From contig NZ_CP063849.1 of assembly GCF_015277775.1 (NCBI RefSeq), positions 8,695,501-8,759,500 of the forward strand: a DNA stretch of 64,000 bases. The letters are read 5' to 3'. The position numbers were made by a program, and so were the translations under genes. The notes beneath the pieces were generated by a model that saw only the letters and a program-made list of their open reading frames with translations, ran no database searches and was not told where the DNA came from. Position 1 is the stretch's first letter. Each line of letters opens with the position of its first letter. Shown piece after piece: positions 42,965-47,596 of the stretch. This stretch comes from Paludibaculum fermentans (GTDB lineage: Bacteria; Acidobacteriota; Terriglobia; Bryobacterales; Bryobacteraceae).

Positions 42965-44017
42965 CTAGTAGCCACTGGGTACAATCCGGAAACTCTCTTT
43001 CCACTGTCCGCCCGCCGCCACGCTCTGCAGCCCTTTGTACCAGCCGTCATGTGCGGCATTGAATGCGTTGGTGGGGCCAGTCATGGGCTCAAAGCAGACA
43101 AATCCGCGGCCGGGGGGCGCGTACACCACCGCGACCTCAAAATGCGGACCGTACTCCACCGTGATCTTCTGCTTCTGCCCCTCCACCCAGAATCGCGCCT
43201 TGCCATCCGCATCCCGCACGAGTCCATCGAACACATCATCGAGAGTGATGCCTTGCAACGGTTGCGGATCCTTGTATGGATTGATTGCACGCTCACCGGT
43301 CGGGATCAGCCGGTTCGAAAGCGCCAGTCGGTCCTTGGCGGGCAGGTGGACTTTCCACGCGTCGCGCGGTGCATCCGTCACCTGAAAATAAGGGTGATAG
43401 CCAAGCGAGACGGGCATCGGTTCCGCACTCAAATTCTCGATCGCGGTCTCTACTTCCAGGGCGCCGTCCGCCAGGCGGTATGTCATCTCAATGTTGTGCG
43501 CGAACGGGAACTGCGCCATCAACTCCGGATGCCTCCAGAACTCCAGCCGGGACGTGATCACCGCGGCGTGCCCGTCGGCCTTTGCACTCTTTACCCGCCA
43601 GAGATCCGTATACACCAGCAGGCCGTGAATCGGCGTGTTGTTCGGCCCCGGCTTCACATTGCCCACCTCCAGGTCGAGCGAGTACTTCCGGCCCGACGCA
43701 TAGTAAGTCGTGCCATCAATCCTGTTTGCCCAGGGCCAAAGCAGCGGATTCCCGAGATGGGCGGGCTTCGCCGCAAATTCGCCCACGCTGGTGTAAGGCG
43801 ACCAGAATACCTTCTGTCCCTTCACCGTCATCTCGTAGGAGTTGTTACCCAACCCCGGAGCGATACGGACCTCGGCCGCATGCGCCTGGTCACGCAGGAT
43901 GTAAACTTCGACGGAATCGACCGTCGTCTTTTCAATGGAGTAGTTGGCAGCTTGTGTCATGGAAGTGGCGCCGAACAGGCATAGTCCGGCTGCAAGTGGA
44001 ACGAGCGCGTTGCGCAT
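42965..44017 (-). CDS. Secreted aldose 1-epimerase family protein
   Basis: This is a 350-residue mutarotase-like protein with a signal peptide (LAAGLCLFGATSMTQA). Catalytic His and Glu regions of galactose mutarotases are visible: PIHGLLVYTDLW, SLGYHPYFQV and a late Glu in GFVCFEPMTGPTNA. Export suggests that it acts on sugars outside the cytoplasm. It ends the reverse-strand run that begins with the ATPase gene, but it is probably independent in function. Confidence 0.87.
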   Translation of the reverse strand: MRNALVPLAAGLCLFGATSMTQAANYSIEKTTVDSVEVYILRDQAHAAEVRIAPGLGNNSYEMTVKGQKVFWSPYTSVGEFAAKPAHLGNPLLWPWANRIDGTTYYASGRKYSLDLEVGNVKPGPNNTPIHGLLVYTDLWRVKSAKADGHAAVITSRLEFWRHPELMAQFPFAHNIEMTYRLADGALEVETAIENLSAEPMPVSLGYHPYFQVTDAPRDAWKVHLPAKDRLALSNRLIPTGERAINPYKDPQPLQGITLDDVFDGLVRDADGKARFWVEGQKQKITVEYGPHFEVAVVYAPPGRGFVCFEPMTGPTNAFNAAHDGWYKGLQSVAAGGQWKESFRIVPSGY

Positions 44018-44027
44018 GTTCCTGAGT

Positions 44028-44462
44028 TTAGTTCGTTGGGTCGGTATCTTCCAACGCCGGATCCCGCAAATCCAGTTTCATGGGACGCTGGCAGCACTGG
44101 CAGTTACCCGGAGTCCAGGCGCGGATCGAGCAGATCTCGCACCAGTAGGTGACCATCATGCGTTTGCCGCCGCTCCAGGCAAACAGTGCCTTCTTGTAGA
44201 TCGGATCGGCTTCAAACTGGGTTGGCCCCGTAAAGTGGCCCATGGCCTCGAAATCCGCATCCTTCAGCCTTTGGTCGCGCAGGACGCCCACCGTGGCCGC
44301 ATCACCACTTAAGTCAATGACCTTCCCGTCCTTAGTGAAGATGCCTGGCTTCGTTCCGTCAGCCTGCCGCAACCGGCCTCTCACGGACGTACGCTCTTCG
44401 GCCGCCGTCATCCGGAATGGCAACACAGCGGTCGCGAGAAGCAATACACGGCGCGTCATCAA
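44028..44462 (-). CDS. Secreted Cys-rich protein with CxxC..CxCC cluster
   Basis: This 144-residue protein has a basic N terminus and a signal-like hydrophobic stretch (RRVLLLATAVLPFRMTAAE). A beta domain follows (SVRGRLRQADGTKPGIFTKDGKVIDLSGDAA). The C-terminal cluster is WCEICSIRAWTPGNCQCCQRPM, five cysteines that look like a zinc- or copper-binding knuckle. Its start overlaps the P-type-ATPase stop by 4 bp (ATGA), so the two are coupled. I recall similar acidobacterial proteins without assigned function. Confidence 0.7.
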   Translation of the reverse strand: MMTRRVLLLATAVLPFRMTAAEERTSVRGRLRQADGTKPGIFTKDGKVIDLSGDAATVGVLRDQRLKDADFEAMGHFTGPTQFEADPIYKKALFAWSGGKRMMVTYWCEICSIRAWTPGNCQCCQRPMKLDLRDPALEDTDPTN

Positions 44463-46471
44463 TCAGTTGGATGCGTTTTGGTCCGCAAGAGTCGCAGCCC
44501 GTTCAGCGTAACGGCAAAGGTCGCGCCCATATCGGCCGCCACCGCCATCCACAGCGTTGCCATGCCCGCCATGGCCGCCGCCAGGAACAGGACCTTCGCT
44601 CCCAGGGCAAAGAGAATGTTGCCTTTGATCACACGCAGCGTCCGCCGCGAGTGATCGACCAGAAACACCATCCGCCCCAGGTCATTGGTCATGAGTACGC
44701 CGTCCGCCGTTTCCCTTGCCATATCCGCACCTTGGCTGCCCATGGTGATACCCAGACTGGCTTCCGCCAGCGCTTCCGCATCCGTGAGGCCATCCGCCAC
44801 CATGCCGACATGGCCGTAGAGCCGCCTCAACTCCCGTACGCGCGCGGCCTTCTCAAGAGGGTAAAGATCCGCCTCCACTTCGCTTACCCCAGCCGCCGCG
44901 GCTGCGGTCCGCCCGGCTTGGCAAGGGTCGCCGGTCAAGACCAGAACCCGCTCCACCCCCCGCTGCTTCAACTGCCGCAGAACCTCGCCGGCGCCCTGCC
45001 TGGGTGCGTCGCAATAGGCCTCCAGCACCAGATGCCCCGACTCCTCCCAAACCGCCGCTGTCCAACCCTTCCCCGCAAGCTGCTCGACGGCCTGGAGGAC
45101 GCTGCCCTGTGCGCCTGACTCGCTCAAGGTCCGGGGTGTCAGCGGCCAGTCGACGCCCTGCTCGCCCTTCCATGCCTGCCAGTTCCGAATCTCCTGGCTC
45201 TCGGCTTCGTTCAGAGCCCTCTGGTCCGCCGCCTCCGGCAGGCCGCTTGTCAGCACCCCAGCCCGTCCCAAGACCAGCACCCGCATCCGTGCTGCTTCTT
45301 CGAGGAATGTCCCGCCTTTCAGCAGTACACCTTGCCTCGCCGCACTCGTCAGCGCCGCAACAATTGAGACCGGCGTCGAAATCACCAGGGCGCACGGGCA
45401 GGCGATCAGCAATACCACCATTCCCTGGTAGAACCATTCGCTCCAGCCGCCGCCCTTCCAGATTGGCGGGAGCGTGCTCACGAATAATGCCAGCAGCAGC
45501 ACCGCCGGCGTGTAGTACCGCGTGAACCGTTCGACGATCTGCTCGCTGGGTGCTCTTCGCGAATGAGACTCTTCCACCATGCGAATCATCCGGGCGAGCG
45601 TGCTGTCTGAAGCTTCCCTGCTGGTCTCCACCTCCAGCGTGCCGCTTTCGTTGATGGTTCCCGCGAAAACCTCTTCGCCAGCGCGCTTCTCCACCGCGAC
45701 AGACTCACCCGTGATCAGCGCCTGATTGACGAAGGAGACACCCTCCACCACCCTGCCGTCCGCCGGGATCCGTTCACCCGGACGGACGCGCACCCGGGCG
45801 CCCACCCGAATCGTCTCCACCGCCACTCTATGCTCATGACTCCCGTGGATGACGGACGCTTCCGGTGGAGCCACGGCCAGCAGGCGCGCAATCGCGTCCC
45901 GCGCCCGAACCATGCTCCAATGCTCCATCCGGCCCGCCAGCGCGAACAAGAACGAAAGCGTGGCGGCCTCGGTCCATTCGCCCAGGATGCTGGCGCCTAC
46001 AACGGAAAGCAGGACCAGCAGGTTCATATCCGCCCGCAGGCCGCGCAGTGCGGCCCACGCCTTCGGCAACGCAGGTATCGCGCCAGCGCAGATGGCCGCC
46101 CAGAAACATAGCTGCACCGCCAGCGGCAGATGATGGCCCGAATGCTCGTGAACCAGCACCGCGTGCACCAGATCGCCCGACTGCCACGCCTCCACGGCCA
46201 TGCCGCCGGCAAGTGCCAGCCCACTGGCCCAGGTGAAGGCAACCGCACTATCGATGCGGACAGCCTGTCCCGCCTTTGCGCTGCCTCTCAACCACTTTTC
46301 ACACCGCATCCCAATCGAGGCAACGGCGGATTCGATCTCTTCCGGCGAGGTCTTCTCGGCCGAGTACTCCACGTCCATCCGCGCCTGAACTACGTCGAAG
46401 CGCAGGTCCCTCACTCCGTTCACCCGGCTGAGCCGTGAACGCAGCAGTGATACCTCCTGGGCGCAGTCCAT
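44459..46471 (-). CDS. P1B-type heavy-metal ATPase homologue lacking the catalytic Asp motif
   Basis: This 670-residue protein has the full P1B layout: an N-terminal HMA-like domain (MDCAQEV, one Cys only), membrane helices, the actuator TGES (residues 254-257), the metal-site CPC (358-360) in helix 6, and the C-terminal TLWMAVAADMGA..NGLRLL block. The phosphorylation motif FDKTGTLT is read as LGRAGVLT (401-408), so the phospho-Asp is Gly402 (GGA). The hinge GDGxND is ADGLTD (559-564), and the N-domain HP motif is not seen. TGD (513-515) and PxxK (538-541) remain. The frame is intact, so it is either a pseudoenzyme or an early-stage decayed gene. No in-frame ATG lies further upstream. It is divergent from a His-rich protein gene. 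Confidence 0.88.
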   Translation of the reverse strand: MDCAQEVSLLRSRLSRVNGVRDLRFDVVQARMDVEYSAEKTSPEEIESAVASIGMRCEKWLRGSAKAGQAVRIDSAVAFTWASGLALAGGMAVEAWQSGDLVHAVLVHEHSGHHLPLAVQLCFWAAICAGAIPALPKAWAALRGLRADMNLLVLLSVVGASILGEWTEAATLSFLFALAGRMEHWSMVRARDAIARLLAVAPPEASVIHGSHEHRVAVETIRVGARVRVRPGERIPADGRVVEGVSFVNQALITGESVAVEKRAGEEVFAGTINESGTLEVETSREASDSTLARMIRMVEESHSRRAPSEQIVERFTRYYTPAVLLLALFVSTLPPIWKGGGWSEWFYQGMVVLLIACPCALVISTPVSIVAALTSAARQGVLLKGGTFLEEAARMRVLVLGRAGVLTSGLPEAADQRALNEAESQEIRNWQAWKGEQGVDWPLTPRTLSESGAQGSVLQAVEQLAGKGWTAAVWEESGHLVLEAYCDAPRQGAGEVLRQLKQRGVERVLVLTGDPCQAGRTAAAAAGVSEVEADLYPLEKAARVRELRRLYGHVGMVADGLTDAEALAEASLGITMGSQGADMARETADGVLMTNDLGRMVFLVDHSRRTLRVIKGNILFALGAKVLFLAAAMAGMATLWMAVAADMGATFAVTLNGLRLLRTKTHPTD

Positions 46472-46503
46472 CCCATGAACACGATACTGGGCTACTTTGT
46501 TAA

Positions 46504-46519
46504 TGAGAATCTATCCTCA
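46504..46519. promoter_or_regulatory. Candidate operator between divergent metal genes
   Basis: TGAGAATCTATCCTCA is an imperfect palindrome in which 6 of 8 base pairs match. It lies 33 bp before the ATPase start and 57 bp before the His-rich gene. The AT-rich, TGAG-AT..AT-CTCA pattern would suit a Fur-, Zur- or MntR-like dimer. No regulator was identified as its binder, and the Crp/Fnr gene next door is another option. Confidence 0.35.
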
Positions 46520-46576
46520 ATAACATTGTAGCCGAATTGGCCCTCACCTGGGTAACAATGGAGGAAGAGGGCCACG

Positions 46577-46924
46577 ATGGCAGCGCACAAGATCCACGGC
46601 AACCATTCCCACGTGCACGGCGAGGATTGCGGGCACACCGCCATCCTGCACGCGGGGCATGTAGACTACTTGCACGACGGTTGCCTGCACACTGCGCATG
46701 GCGACCATTTCGACGAATGCAGGATTCCGGTTTCCAGCGCCAATCCCGATGCGTGTACCCCCGCGCACACCTGCGCCGGGCACGAGGCAGGCCATCGTCA
46801 TGGCGTGGGCTGCGGACACGAACCGGTGCCGCATGGGGACCACGTCGACTACCTGGTGGACGGGCACCTGCACCATCCGCACGAGTCGCACTGCGACGAT
46901 CACGGAGCGGTAGAGCTGACCTGA
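46577..46924 (+). CDS. Histidine-rich duplicated metal-binding protein
   Basis: This 115-residue protein has 25 His and 7 Cys. Two similar units are seen: CGHTAILHAGHVDYLHDGCL.. (about residues 18-48) and CGHEPVPHGDHVDYLVDGHL.. (about 79-109). A CTPAHTC linker lies between them. No signal peptide or membrane segment is seen, so it is probably a cytoplasmic metal buffer or sensor. Similar proteins exist widely without assigned function, often near metal transport genes. Here it is divergent from the P1B-ATPase homologue and convergent with a Crp/Fnr gene (6-bp gap). Confidence 0.8.
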   Translation: MAAHKIHGNHSHVHGEDCGHTAILHAGHVDYLHDGCLHTAHGDHFDECRIPVSSANPDACTPAHTCAGHEAGHRHGVGCGHEPVPHGDHVDYLVDGHLHHPHESHCDDHGAVELT

Positions 46925-46930
46925 TGCGCC

Positions 46931-47596
46931 CTAGTCGTCGCCGTTTCTCGAAAGCAGTTCGCGCAGCCGGCTCAGGTCGGGAATGCTCACCCGGTTCTTG
47001 CCCAGGCGCACCAGTTCCAACTTCTCCAGGCGGTTGAGCTGGGTCGAAACCGTTTCTCGAGTCGATCCCGCCAAGCCTGCGATCTGGATCTGGGAGATGC
47101 CGATATGCGCCTGCATGGAGTCTCCTGCTGGAGCCGGAAACACCGTCGCCAGTTCGAGCAGGGCGGCGAGCAACCGCTGCTCCACACCCATCTGTGAGTG
47201 CTGGCTCATGCGAAGCAGCAGCGACCGGCGCTGCAACGCGAAGCGTTCGGCCAGCCAAAGCCCGACGTTCGGGTCTTCGGTCTTTGCCTTCAACAGGTTT
47301 GACCGCCGGATGCGCCATACCAGCGAAGGATCCATCAGCGCCGCGCTGGTTTCCCGCTTCCGCTTTCCATAGATCGCCTCGTCGCCCAATACTTCACCGG
47401 GGTGGACCAGCGTCAAGACGTACTCAAGGCTACCGCGCCGTTGTTGAAACAGGCGCGCTGCTCCACTCTCTACGAAATAGAAGCTGTCCGCCGCGTCGCC
47501 TGCCTGGTAGAGGGCAGAGGGGTATTTCCAGGACGCGAGACGCTCTCCATCCATCGCCTGCACAAATTGCAAACCTGCGTGAACACTGGGTTTCAT
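46931..47596 (-). CDS. Crp/Fnr-family transcription regulator
   Basis: This 221-residue protein has an N-terminal cNMP-binding beta-barrel (AGDAADSFYFVESGAARLFQQ, HPGEVLGDEAIYG) and a C-terminal winged helix (ISQIQIAGLAGSTRETVSTQLNRLEKLELVR). It contains no cysteine at all, so it cannot carry an FNR-type iron-sulphur cluster. Its ligand, if any, is unknown. Position beside the metal cluster suggests it may control the His-rich and ATPase genes, but no binding site was confirmed. Confidence 0.9.
   Translation of the reverse strand: MKPSVHAGLQFVQAMDGERLASWKYPSALYQAGDAADSFYFVESGAARLFQQRRGSLEYVLTLVHPGEVLGDEAIYGKRKRETSAALMDPSLVWRIRRSNLLKAKTEDPNVGLWLAERFALQRRSLLLRMSQHSQMGVEQRLLAALLELATVFPAPAGDSMQAHIGISQIQIAGLAGSTRETVSTQLNRLEKLELVRLGKNRVSIPDLSRLRELLSRNGDD

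Follow-up and report, generated by a model that had tools for sequence, protein, structure and literature searches.

A P1B-2 ATPase homologue of Paludibaculum fermentans with lost catalytic motifs and a conserved putative zinc path

The window analyzed here, a 64,000-nucleotide stretch of the Paludibaculum fermentans genome, encodes a homologue of the P1B-2 zinc/cadmium ATPases in which the motifs that drive the pump are replaced or deleted, and which is found in this degenerate form, with its membrane metal-site residues unchanged, in 14 genomes. It is, in our assessment, highly probable that the protein is functional and unable to run the normal catalytic cycle, and the pattern of loss and conservation suggests that an energy-driven pump has been turned into an energy-free zinc protein. 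Our leading reading, put forward tentatively, is that the protein descends from a P1B-2 efflux ATPase, has been stably kept after losing its engine, and would pass or exchange zinc or cadmium without ATP.

Frame, family assignment and distribution

The gene occupies positions 44459..46501 of the minus strand when counted from a probable AUU start (46499-46501); the frame that begins with the ATG at 46471 ends in the stop codon at 44459 and encodes 670 amino acids. As an earlier note on this DNA had described, this frame is intact, and the TGES, CPC and TGD motifs, the PxxK lysine and the C-terminal membrane block can all be located in it. The assembly totals 9,532,094 bases, of which 9,476,802 belong to its first contig, and the genome of strain P105T is reported to have been obtained from 454 and Nanopore reads with Pilon correction (PMC8407742). 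Pfam recognizes the E1-E2_ATPase (E value of 3.2e-52), HAD hydrolase (2.6e-10) and HMA (3.7e-06) domains, and the NCBIfam models TIGR01512 (the cadmium-family model) and TIGR01525 score 414 bits (cut-off 313.5) and 439 bits (cut-off 346), respectively. The profile scores place the protein above the cadmium-family cut-off, and caution is in order, because a family profile alone would label such genes zinc/cadmium exporters. The membrane signatures of P1B-2 ATPases, namely, CPC, N(x)7K and DxG(x)7N (PMC6305203), are present as C358-P-C360, N618/K626 and D647/G649/N657. Judged by its sequence, the window protein is a P1B-2 (zinc/cadmium) ATPase homologue by descent.

Orthologue searches covered 101 relatives and 237 family genomes and recovered the degenerate form in 14 genomes, nine from the genus of the window and five from a second genus, with an open frame in every case. 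Among 83 aligned relatives, these 14 were degenerate, 66 carried DKTG together with GDGxND, one (L019, from genome G013) had DKTAA and GDSVHD, and two (L165 and L168) were unreadable, with no letters or an off-frame reading at the motif. A further 24 loci were left out as duplicates; of the eight that were checked, seven were true duplicates and one, L169, was an intact DKTGT/GDGIND pump missing from the alignment, which leaves the result unchanged. No qualifying frame was obtained for L171 and L172. In L168 (Elusimicrobiota, CP096137), the gene is split over two frames, one containing CPC and the other DKTGT/GDGVND, which represents a frameshift or a broken gene. The G013 relative (L019/L048/L116), which occupies the same locus, combines DKTAA and GDSVHD with a complete N domain and is a possible intermediate of engine loss. 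By BLASTP identity, the closest relatives with intact motifs are G226/L135 (52%), G023/L018 (52%) and G020/L023 (47%). A range of motif states is still present, including DKTGI, DKTAA, MDRAG, LDRQG, LGRAG, and LHGEG with the N domain deleted.

Loss of the phosphorylation motif, hinge and nucleotide-binding segments

P-type ATPases are defined by an aspartate that becomes phosphorylated during every catalytic cycle. In the window protein, the DKT of the DKTGT motif is replaced by GRA at residues 402-404 (45260..45268, minus strand; codons GGA, CGG for Arg and GCT for Ala), yielding GRAGV. Rereading the sequence confirmed the earlier observation that codon 402, at 45266-45268, is GGA and specifies Gly, and no acidic residue is present at positions 402-404. 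The GDGxND hinge likewise reads ADGLTD (Ala-Asp-Gly-Leu-Thr-Asp) at residues 559-564 (44780..44797, minus strand), as noted before, with codon 563 being ACG (Thr). In addition, the N domain is shortened and devoid of the HP motif. Thus, the protein has neither the phosphorylatable Asp, nor the GDGxND hinge, nor a P1B nucleotide-binding N domain with HP and GxG; the TGE actuator loop is present. A sequencing error at GRAGV is very unlikely, because the separately assembled G002 (90% identical) and G006 (79% identical) also read LGRAGV, which at the same time demonstrates that the Asp-to-Gly change is shared by orthologues.

Compared with 19 pumps, K403, T404 and N563 are altered in all 14 pseudo members, and the N-domain columns conserved in the pumps (ESHP and GG) are deleted in all 14. 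Position 402 is Gly in three members, His in two and Asp in nine, so that D402 is lost in five of the 14, the window protein included. The motif as a whole reads LGRAG in three members, LDRQG in four, MDR[AHS]G in five and LHGEG in two. In the LHGEG pair (G001 and G003), the frame is reduced to 571 aa: the N domain and part of the P domain are missing, and the membrane part is retained. A Pfam scan of the G001 protein detected no hydrolase domain, even with the threshold relaxed to E<=10. D560 and D564 are kept in 14 of 14 members and K541 in the 12 that have this stretch, and together with the nine aspartates at position 402, these residues may sustain residual HAD chemistry in the relatives.

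Conservation of the putative zinc path

The HMA-type metal-binding domain (GMDCxxE, PF00403; residues 1-60, 46292..46471, minus strand) has a mean pairwise identity of 0.70 among full-length pseudo members (66 pairs) vs 0.52 among pumps (171 pairs). The single HMA cysteine pointed out in the earlier note is indeed present; rather than indicating decay, it is normal for the subfamily, because all 19 pumps in the comparison retain C3 and E6. The actuator TGE (residues 254-256, 45704..45712), the CPC membrane metal site (residues 358-360, 45392..45400), K626 of the N(x)7K signature (44594..44596) and D647 of the DxG(x)7N signature (44531..44533), all on the minus strand, are likewise kept in 14 of 14 members, the latter two being equivalent to ZntA K693 and D714, whose roles are described in PMC6305203. 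Overall, C3, N150, V153, E168, T254/G255/E256, E314, C358, P359, C360, K626 and D647 are unchanged in all 14, and the F176 position is occupied by Phe or Tyr. When mapped by hand through the alignment with 4umv, the conserved positions match the funnel, cap, membrane-site, exit and salt-bridge residues of the path described for ZntA/HMA4 (PMC6305203). The exception is ZntA E214 of the funnel, which corresponds to G180 in the window protein, at a position that is also variable in pumps. In total, 113 alignment columns show one and the same residue throughout the pseudo members and in every one of the 19 pumps, with the columns around the G001/G003 deletion judged on 12 members. Since the exit residue E168 and K626 would matter for release, their strict retention appears to fit passage of the metal better than mere binding.

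The AlphaFold2 model built from 42 sequences reached a pLDDT of 86.1 and a pTM of 0.80 (an earlier eight-sequence model had a pLDDT of 72.1), and the best Foldseek E-value was obtained with the zinc ATPase 4umw. The TMq values were 0.65 and 0.62 for the E1-titled entries 8q74 and 8q73, and 0.48, 0.47 and 0.43 for the E2P/E2.Pi-titled entries 4umw, 4umv and 8q75. The highest values were obtained with 7xuk (0.75) and 7r0g (0.70-0.71), both of which we take to be in the E1 state; 7xuk is the mutant D1027A, with D1027 presumably being the phospho-Asp of ATP7B. Although pumps make up most of the 42 aligned rows and AlphaFold2 reports no conformational state, the predicted shape resembles the E1 entries more closely than the E2P/E2.Pi entries, and because the model is E1-like, a cytoplasm-facing binding site fits it better than an open conduit.

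Selection on the coding sequence and its upstream region

The whole-gene dN/dS (Nei-Gojobori) ranges from 0.060 to 0.187 in nine pseudo pairs vs 0.081 to 0.215 in six pump pairs, values that are rough because several dS exceed 1 and three domain-level values (two pseudo pairs and one pump pair) are infinite. For the window gene, the ratio is 0.060 against G002 (at a dS of 1.08) and 0.105 against G006. When the protein is divided into seven regions, dN is highest in P1/N in seven of the nine pseudo pairs. The suggestion that the gene might be a recently decayed pump is ruled out by the altered motifs common to relatives in 14 genomes and by these dN/dS values.

The conserved upstream region (46499..46530, minus strand) consists of a -10-like TACAAT followed by TTGAGGANNNNTTCTCATTAAC, which includes an RBS-like TGAGGA, an imperfect dyad and the AUU start. 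In 13 members of the clade, an in-frame ATT lies nine bases beyond TGAGGA or TGAGGG; the one remaining member, L112 from G214, carries ATG at precisely this position, and the codon is also ATT in G013 and G226. Because ATT is conserved at the place where G214 has ATG, translation probably starts at this AUU, 10 codons upstream of the ATG. The dyad, which is even-spaced, lies between the divergent His-rich and ATPase genes (46499-46520, minus strand), is perfect in L023 (TTGAGAATAGATTCTCAA) and could be the operator of a repressor. A search of the window genome with the dyad pattern returned one exact match, at the ATPase locus, and one match with two mismatches, with equally many in the reversed control. 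The canonical Fur box has a 7-1-7 arrangement. A Fur/Zur operator was considered and rejected, and no regulator was assigned, because the dyad, which reads TTGAGAAT-AG-ATTCTCAA in G020, is even-spaced, unlike the Fur box.

Genomic neighborhood and evolutionary history

Immediately downstream of the pseudo-ATPase gene, in 14 of 14 loci and with a spacing of 0-24 bases, is a gene for a Cys-rich protein with a conserved WCxxC...CxCCQ motif (44028..44462, minus strand), which has a signal-like N terminus as judged by eye and whose start overlaps the ATPase stop in the window (TGATG). It is followed by another conserved neighbor, an aldose 1-epimerase-like gene (42965..44017, minus strand). The Cys-rich gene is widespread, being present in 133 of 237 family genomes. 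Among the best 30 Cys-rich loci examined, the ATPase adjoins in the 14 pseudo genomes only, not in the remaining 16, and 33 of the 45 other subfamily genomes have the gene, on the ATPase contig only in G013 and G226, a count from which fragmented assemblies may hide some cases. On the other side, a gene for a 115-aa His-rich protein (46577..46924, plus strand) diverges from the ATPase gene; it also adjoins intact pumps, and in the regions compared, none was found beside the G007 and G008 loci. The earlier note had taken these two neighbors as evidence of a retained role. The arrangement itself holds; however, given that the His-rich gene flanks intact pumps and was not found at the G007 and G008 loci, and that the Cys-rich gene is so common in the family, the neighbors alone are no proof that the protein has taken on a new role. 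A Crp/Fnr-type regulator gene (46931-47596) also adjoins the locus and was matched only in L038 (G002) and L039 (G006) of 17 regions, so that a sensor serving this regulator was rejected as a general rule.

In the whole-protein tree, from which six of the 83 rows were omitted as partial or outlying, the 14 members form one clade (SH-aLRT 99) beside L019, followed by the pumps L018, L092 and L023. When the P/N region was omitted, the branch uniting the 14 with L019 remained strong (99/97), with L019 placed weakly inside it (87/57, then 86/74); of 200 bootstrap trees, 0% recovered the 14 by themselves as one group. Because the 14 never grouped alone in this analysis, the engine may have been lost repeatedly. 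At the same locus, G226 encodes a DKTGI/GDGVND pump in the gene order pdh, His-rich, ATPase, Cys-rich, epimerase, skp and the next large gene; from their sequences, we presume these neighbors to be prephenate dehydrogenase (pdh), Skp-like and BamA-like. In G019 and G225, pdh directly adjoins the Cys-rich gene with no ATPase between them, and the ATPase was therefore probably inserted at a site beside the existing Cys-rich gene. Since G226 retains an intact pump at this locus, the engine was probably lost subsequently, in place.

Zinc transport genes

No ZIP or ZnuA match was found in the window genome, which contains three cation-efflux (CDF) and three Fur-family matches and two P1B ATPases besides the pseudo-pump; judging by their membrane motifs, we take the latter two to be copper-type. 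A ZIP match is present in two of the 14 clade genomes vs 127 of the remaining 223 family genomes (Fisher p 0.002, kinship ignored), and in six of 45 other subfamily genomes vs 123 of 192 (kinship again ignored). More broadly, genomes with the P1B-2 subfamily seldom have a ZIP match (8/59 vs 121/178 of the rest, without regard to kinship). Because the other subfamily genomes also do without ZIP, its absence probably predates engine loss. ZnuA was matched in 0 of the 14 clade genomes, which is not unusual because it is rare across the whole family (27/237; p 0.38). The missing importers are only a weak lead toward zinc import.

Possible functions

The single mechanism that appears most likely is ATP-independent zinc conduction. 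In this reading, a P1B-2 efflux ATPase has had the ATP-binding segment of its N domain deleted and its phosphorylation motif altered, and has kept its membrane path; its product would be unable to run the phospho-aspartate cycle, zinc (or cadmium) would be bound by the HMA domain and the membrane site, and the metal would pass or be exchanged across the inner membrane without ATP, down its gradient. A more specific proposal, in which a zinc exporter powered by ATP was converted at its locus into a conduit that works without ATP, possibly for uptake, we consider rather unlikely. If true, a passive transporter would have evolved from a P-type ATPase through loss of the engine with the metal path kept.

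Pseudoenzymes often turn into regulators, and the main rival, possible although on balance unlikely, is a zinc receptor or sensor in which the HMA domain and the CPC/D/K site would bind cytosolic zinc and a conformational change of the A domain would signal to a partner, with no transport. The higher conservation of the HMA domain in the pseudo clade and the E1-like model are in its favor, but no regulator gene adjoins the locus consistently, the Crp/Fnr gene being confined to two of 17 regions, and a receptor would not need the strict conservation of E168 and K626. An improbable alternative is a metal scaffold or chaperone, which would hand zinc to the Cys-rich protein or take it from it; the tight linkage of the two genes, the overlap of their start and stop in the window and the conserved cysteine motif point in this direction, whereas the breadth of the distribution of the Cys-rich gene, its presence in 33 of the 45 other subfamily genomes with the ATPase on the same contig in G013 and G226 only, and the pdh-Cys-rich arrangement of G019 and G225 argue against it.

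Dead paralogues commonly regulate live ones, and G002, G008 and G212 hold further matches, so that the protein could in principle dimerize with and regulate an intact P1B-2 pump; yet 11 of the 14 clade genomes have no other match at E<=1e-60 among the best five candidates per genome, and the two other P1B ATPases of the window genome are presumably copper-type, which makes a partner subunit very improbable. Even less credence is due to a protein that still pumps with another phospho-acceptor or energy source: D560, D564 and TGE in all members, K541 in 12 and Asp in nine would be compatible with it, but the N-domain segments conserved in pumps are deleted throughout, and positions 402-404 of the window protein are without an acidic residue. 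Least credible of all is a decaying pseudogene with a frame intact by chance, for which the lost engine motifs and the high dN of the P1/N region could be cited, against open frames in all 14 genomes, a dN/dS of 0.060 between the window gene and G002, and a conserved promoter and start region. The earlier description of a pseudo-pump with a retained role is supported by the 14 genomes, purifying selection and the kept zinc path, with its argument from the neighboring genes weaker than stated.

The protein resembles the P1B-2 pumps ZntA/CadA (ZntA crystal structures 4umv and 4umw) in the A-domain TGE, CPC, N(x)7K, DxG(x)7N, the exit Glu and the cap positions, at 31-32% identity (Foldseek), and differs from them in the absence of DKTGT and GDGxND and in its shortened N domain without HP. 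Its nearest relatives with intact motifs, the pumps G226/L135, G023/L018 and G020/L023, of which G226 shares both locus and neighbors, differ by their complete engine. Among other enzyme classes, iRhom pseudoproteases and pseudokinases similarly combine a conserved fold with lost catalytic residues. An open-access literature search found neither a P-type pseudo-ATPase nor a paper on ZntA D436N, and the available portion of the review PMC10654040 describes no P-type pseudo-ATPase; ATP13A1-4 are reported to autophosphorylate (PMC5837089). A lineage that sheds the engine but keeps the membrane path would make it possible to explore what the membrane half of such a pump is capable of alone and, because the gene is carried by a type strain that is in culture and has a finished genome, this is testable.
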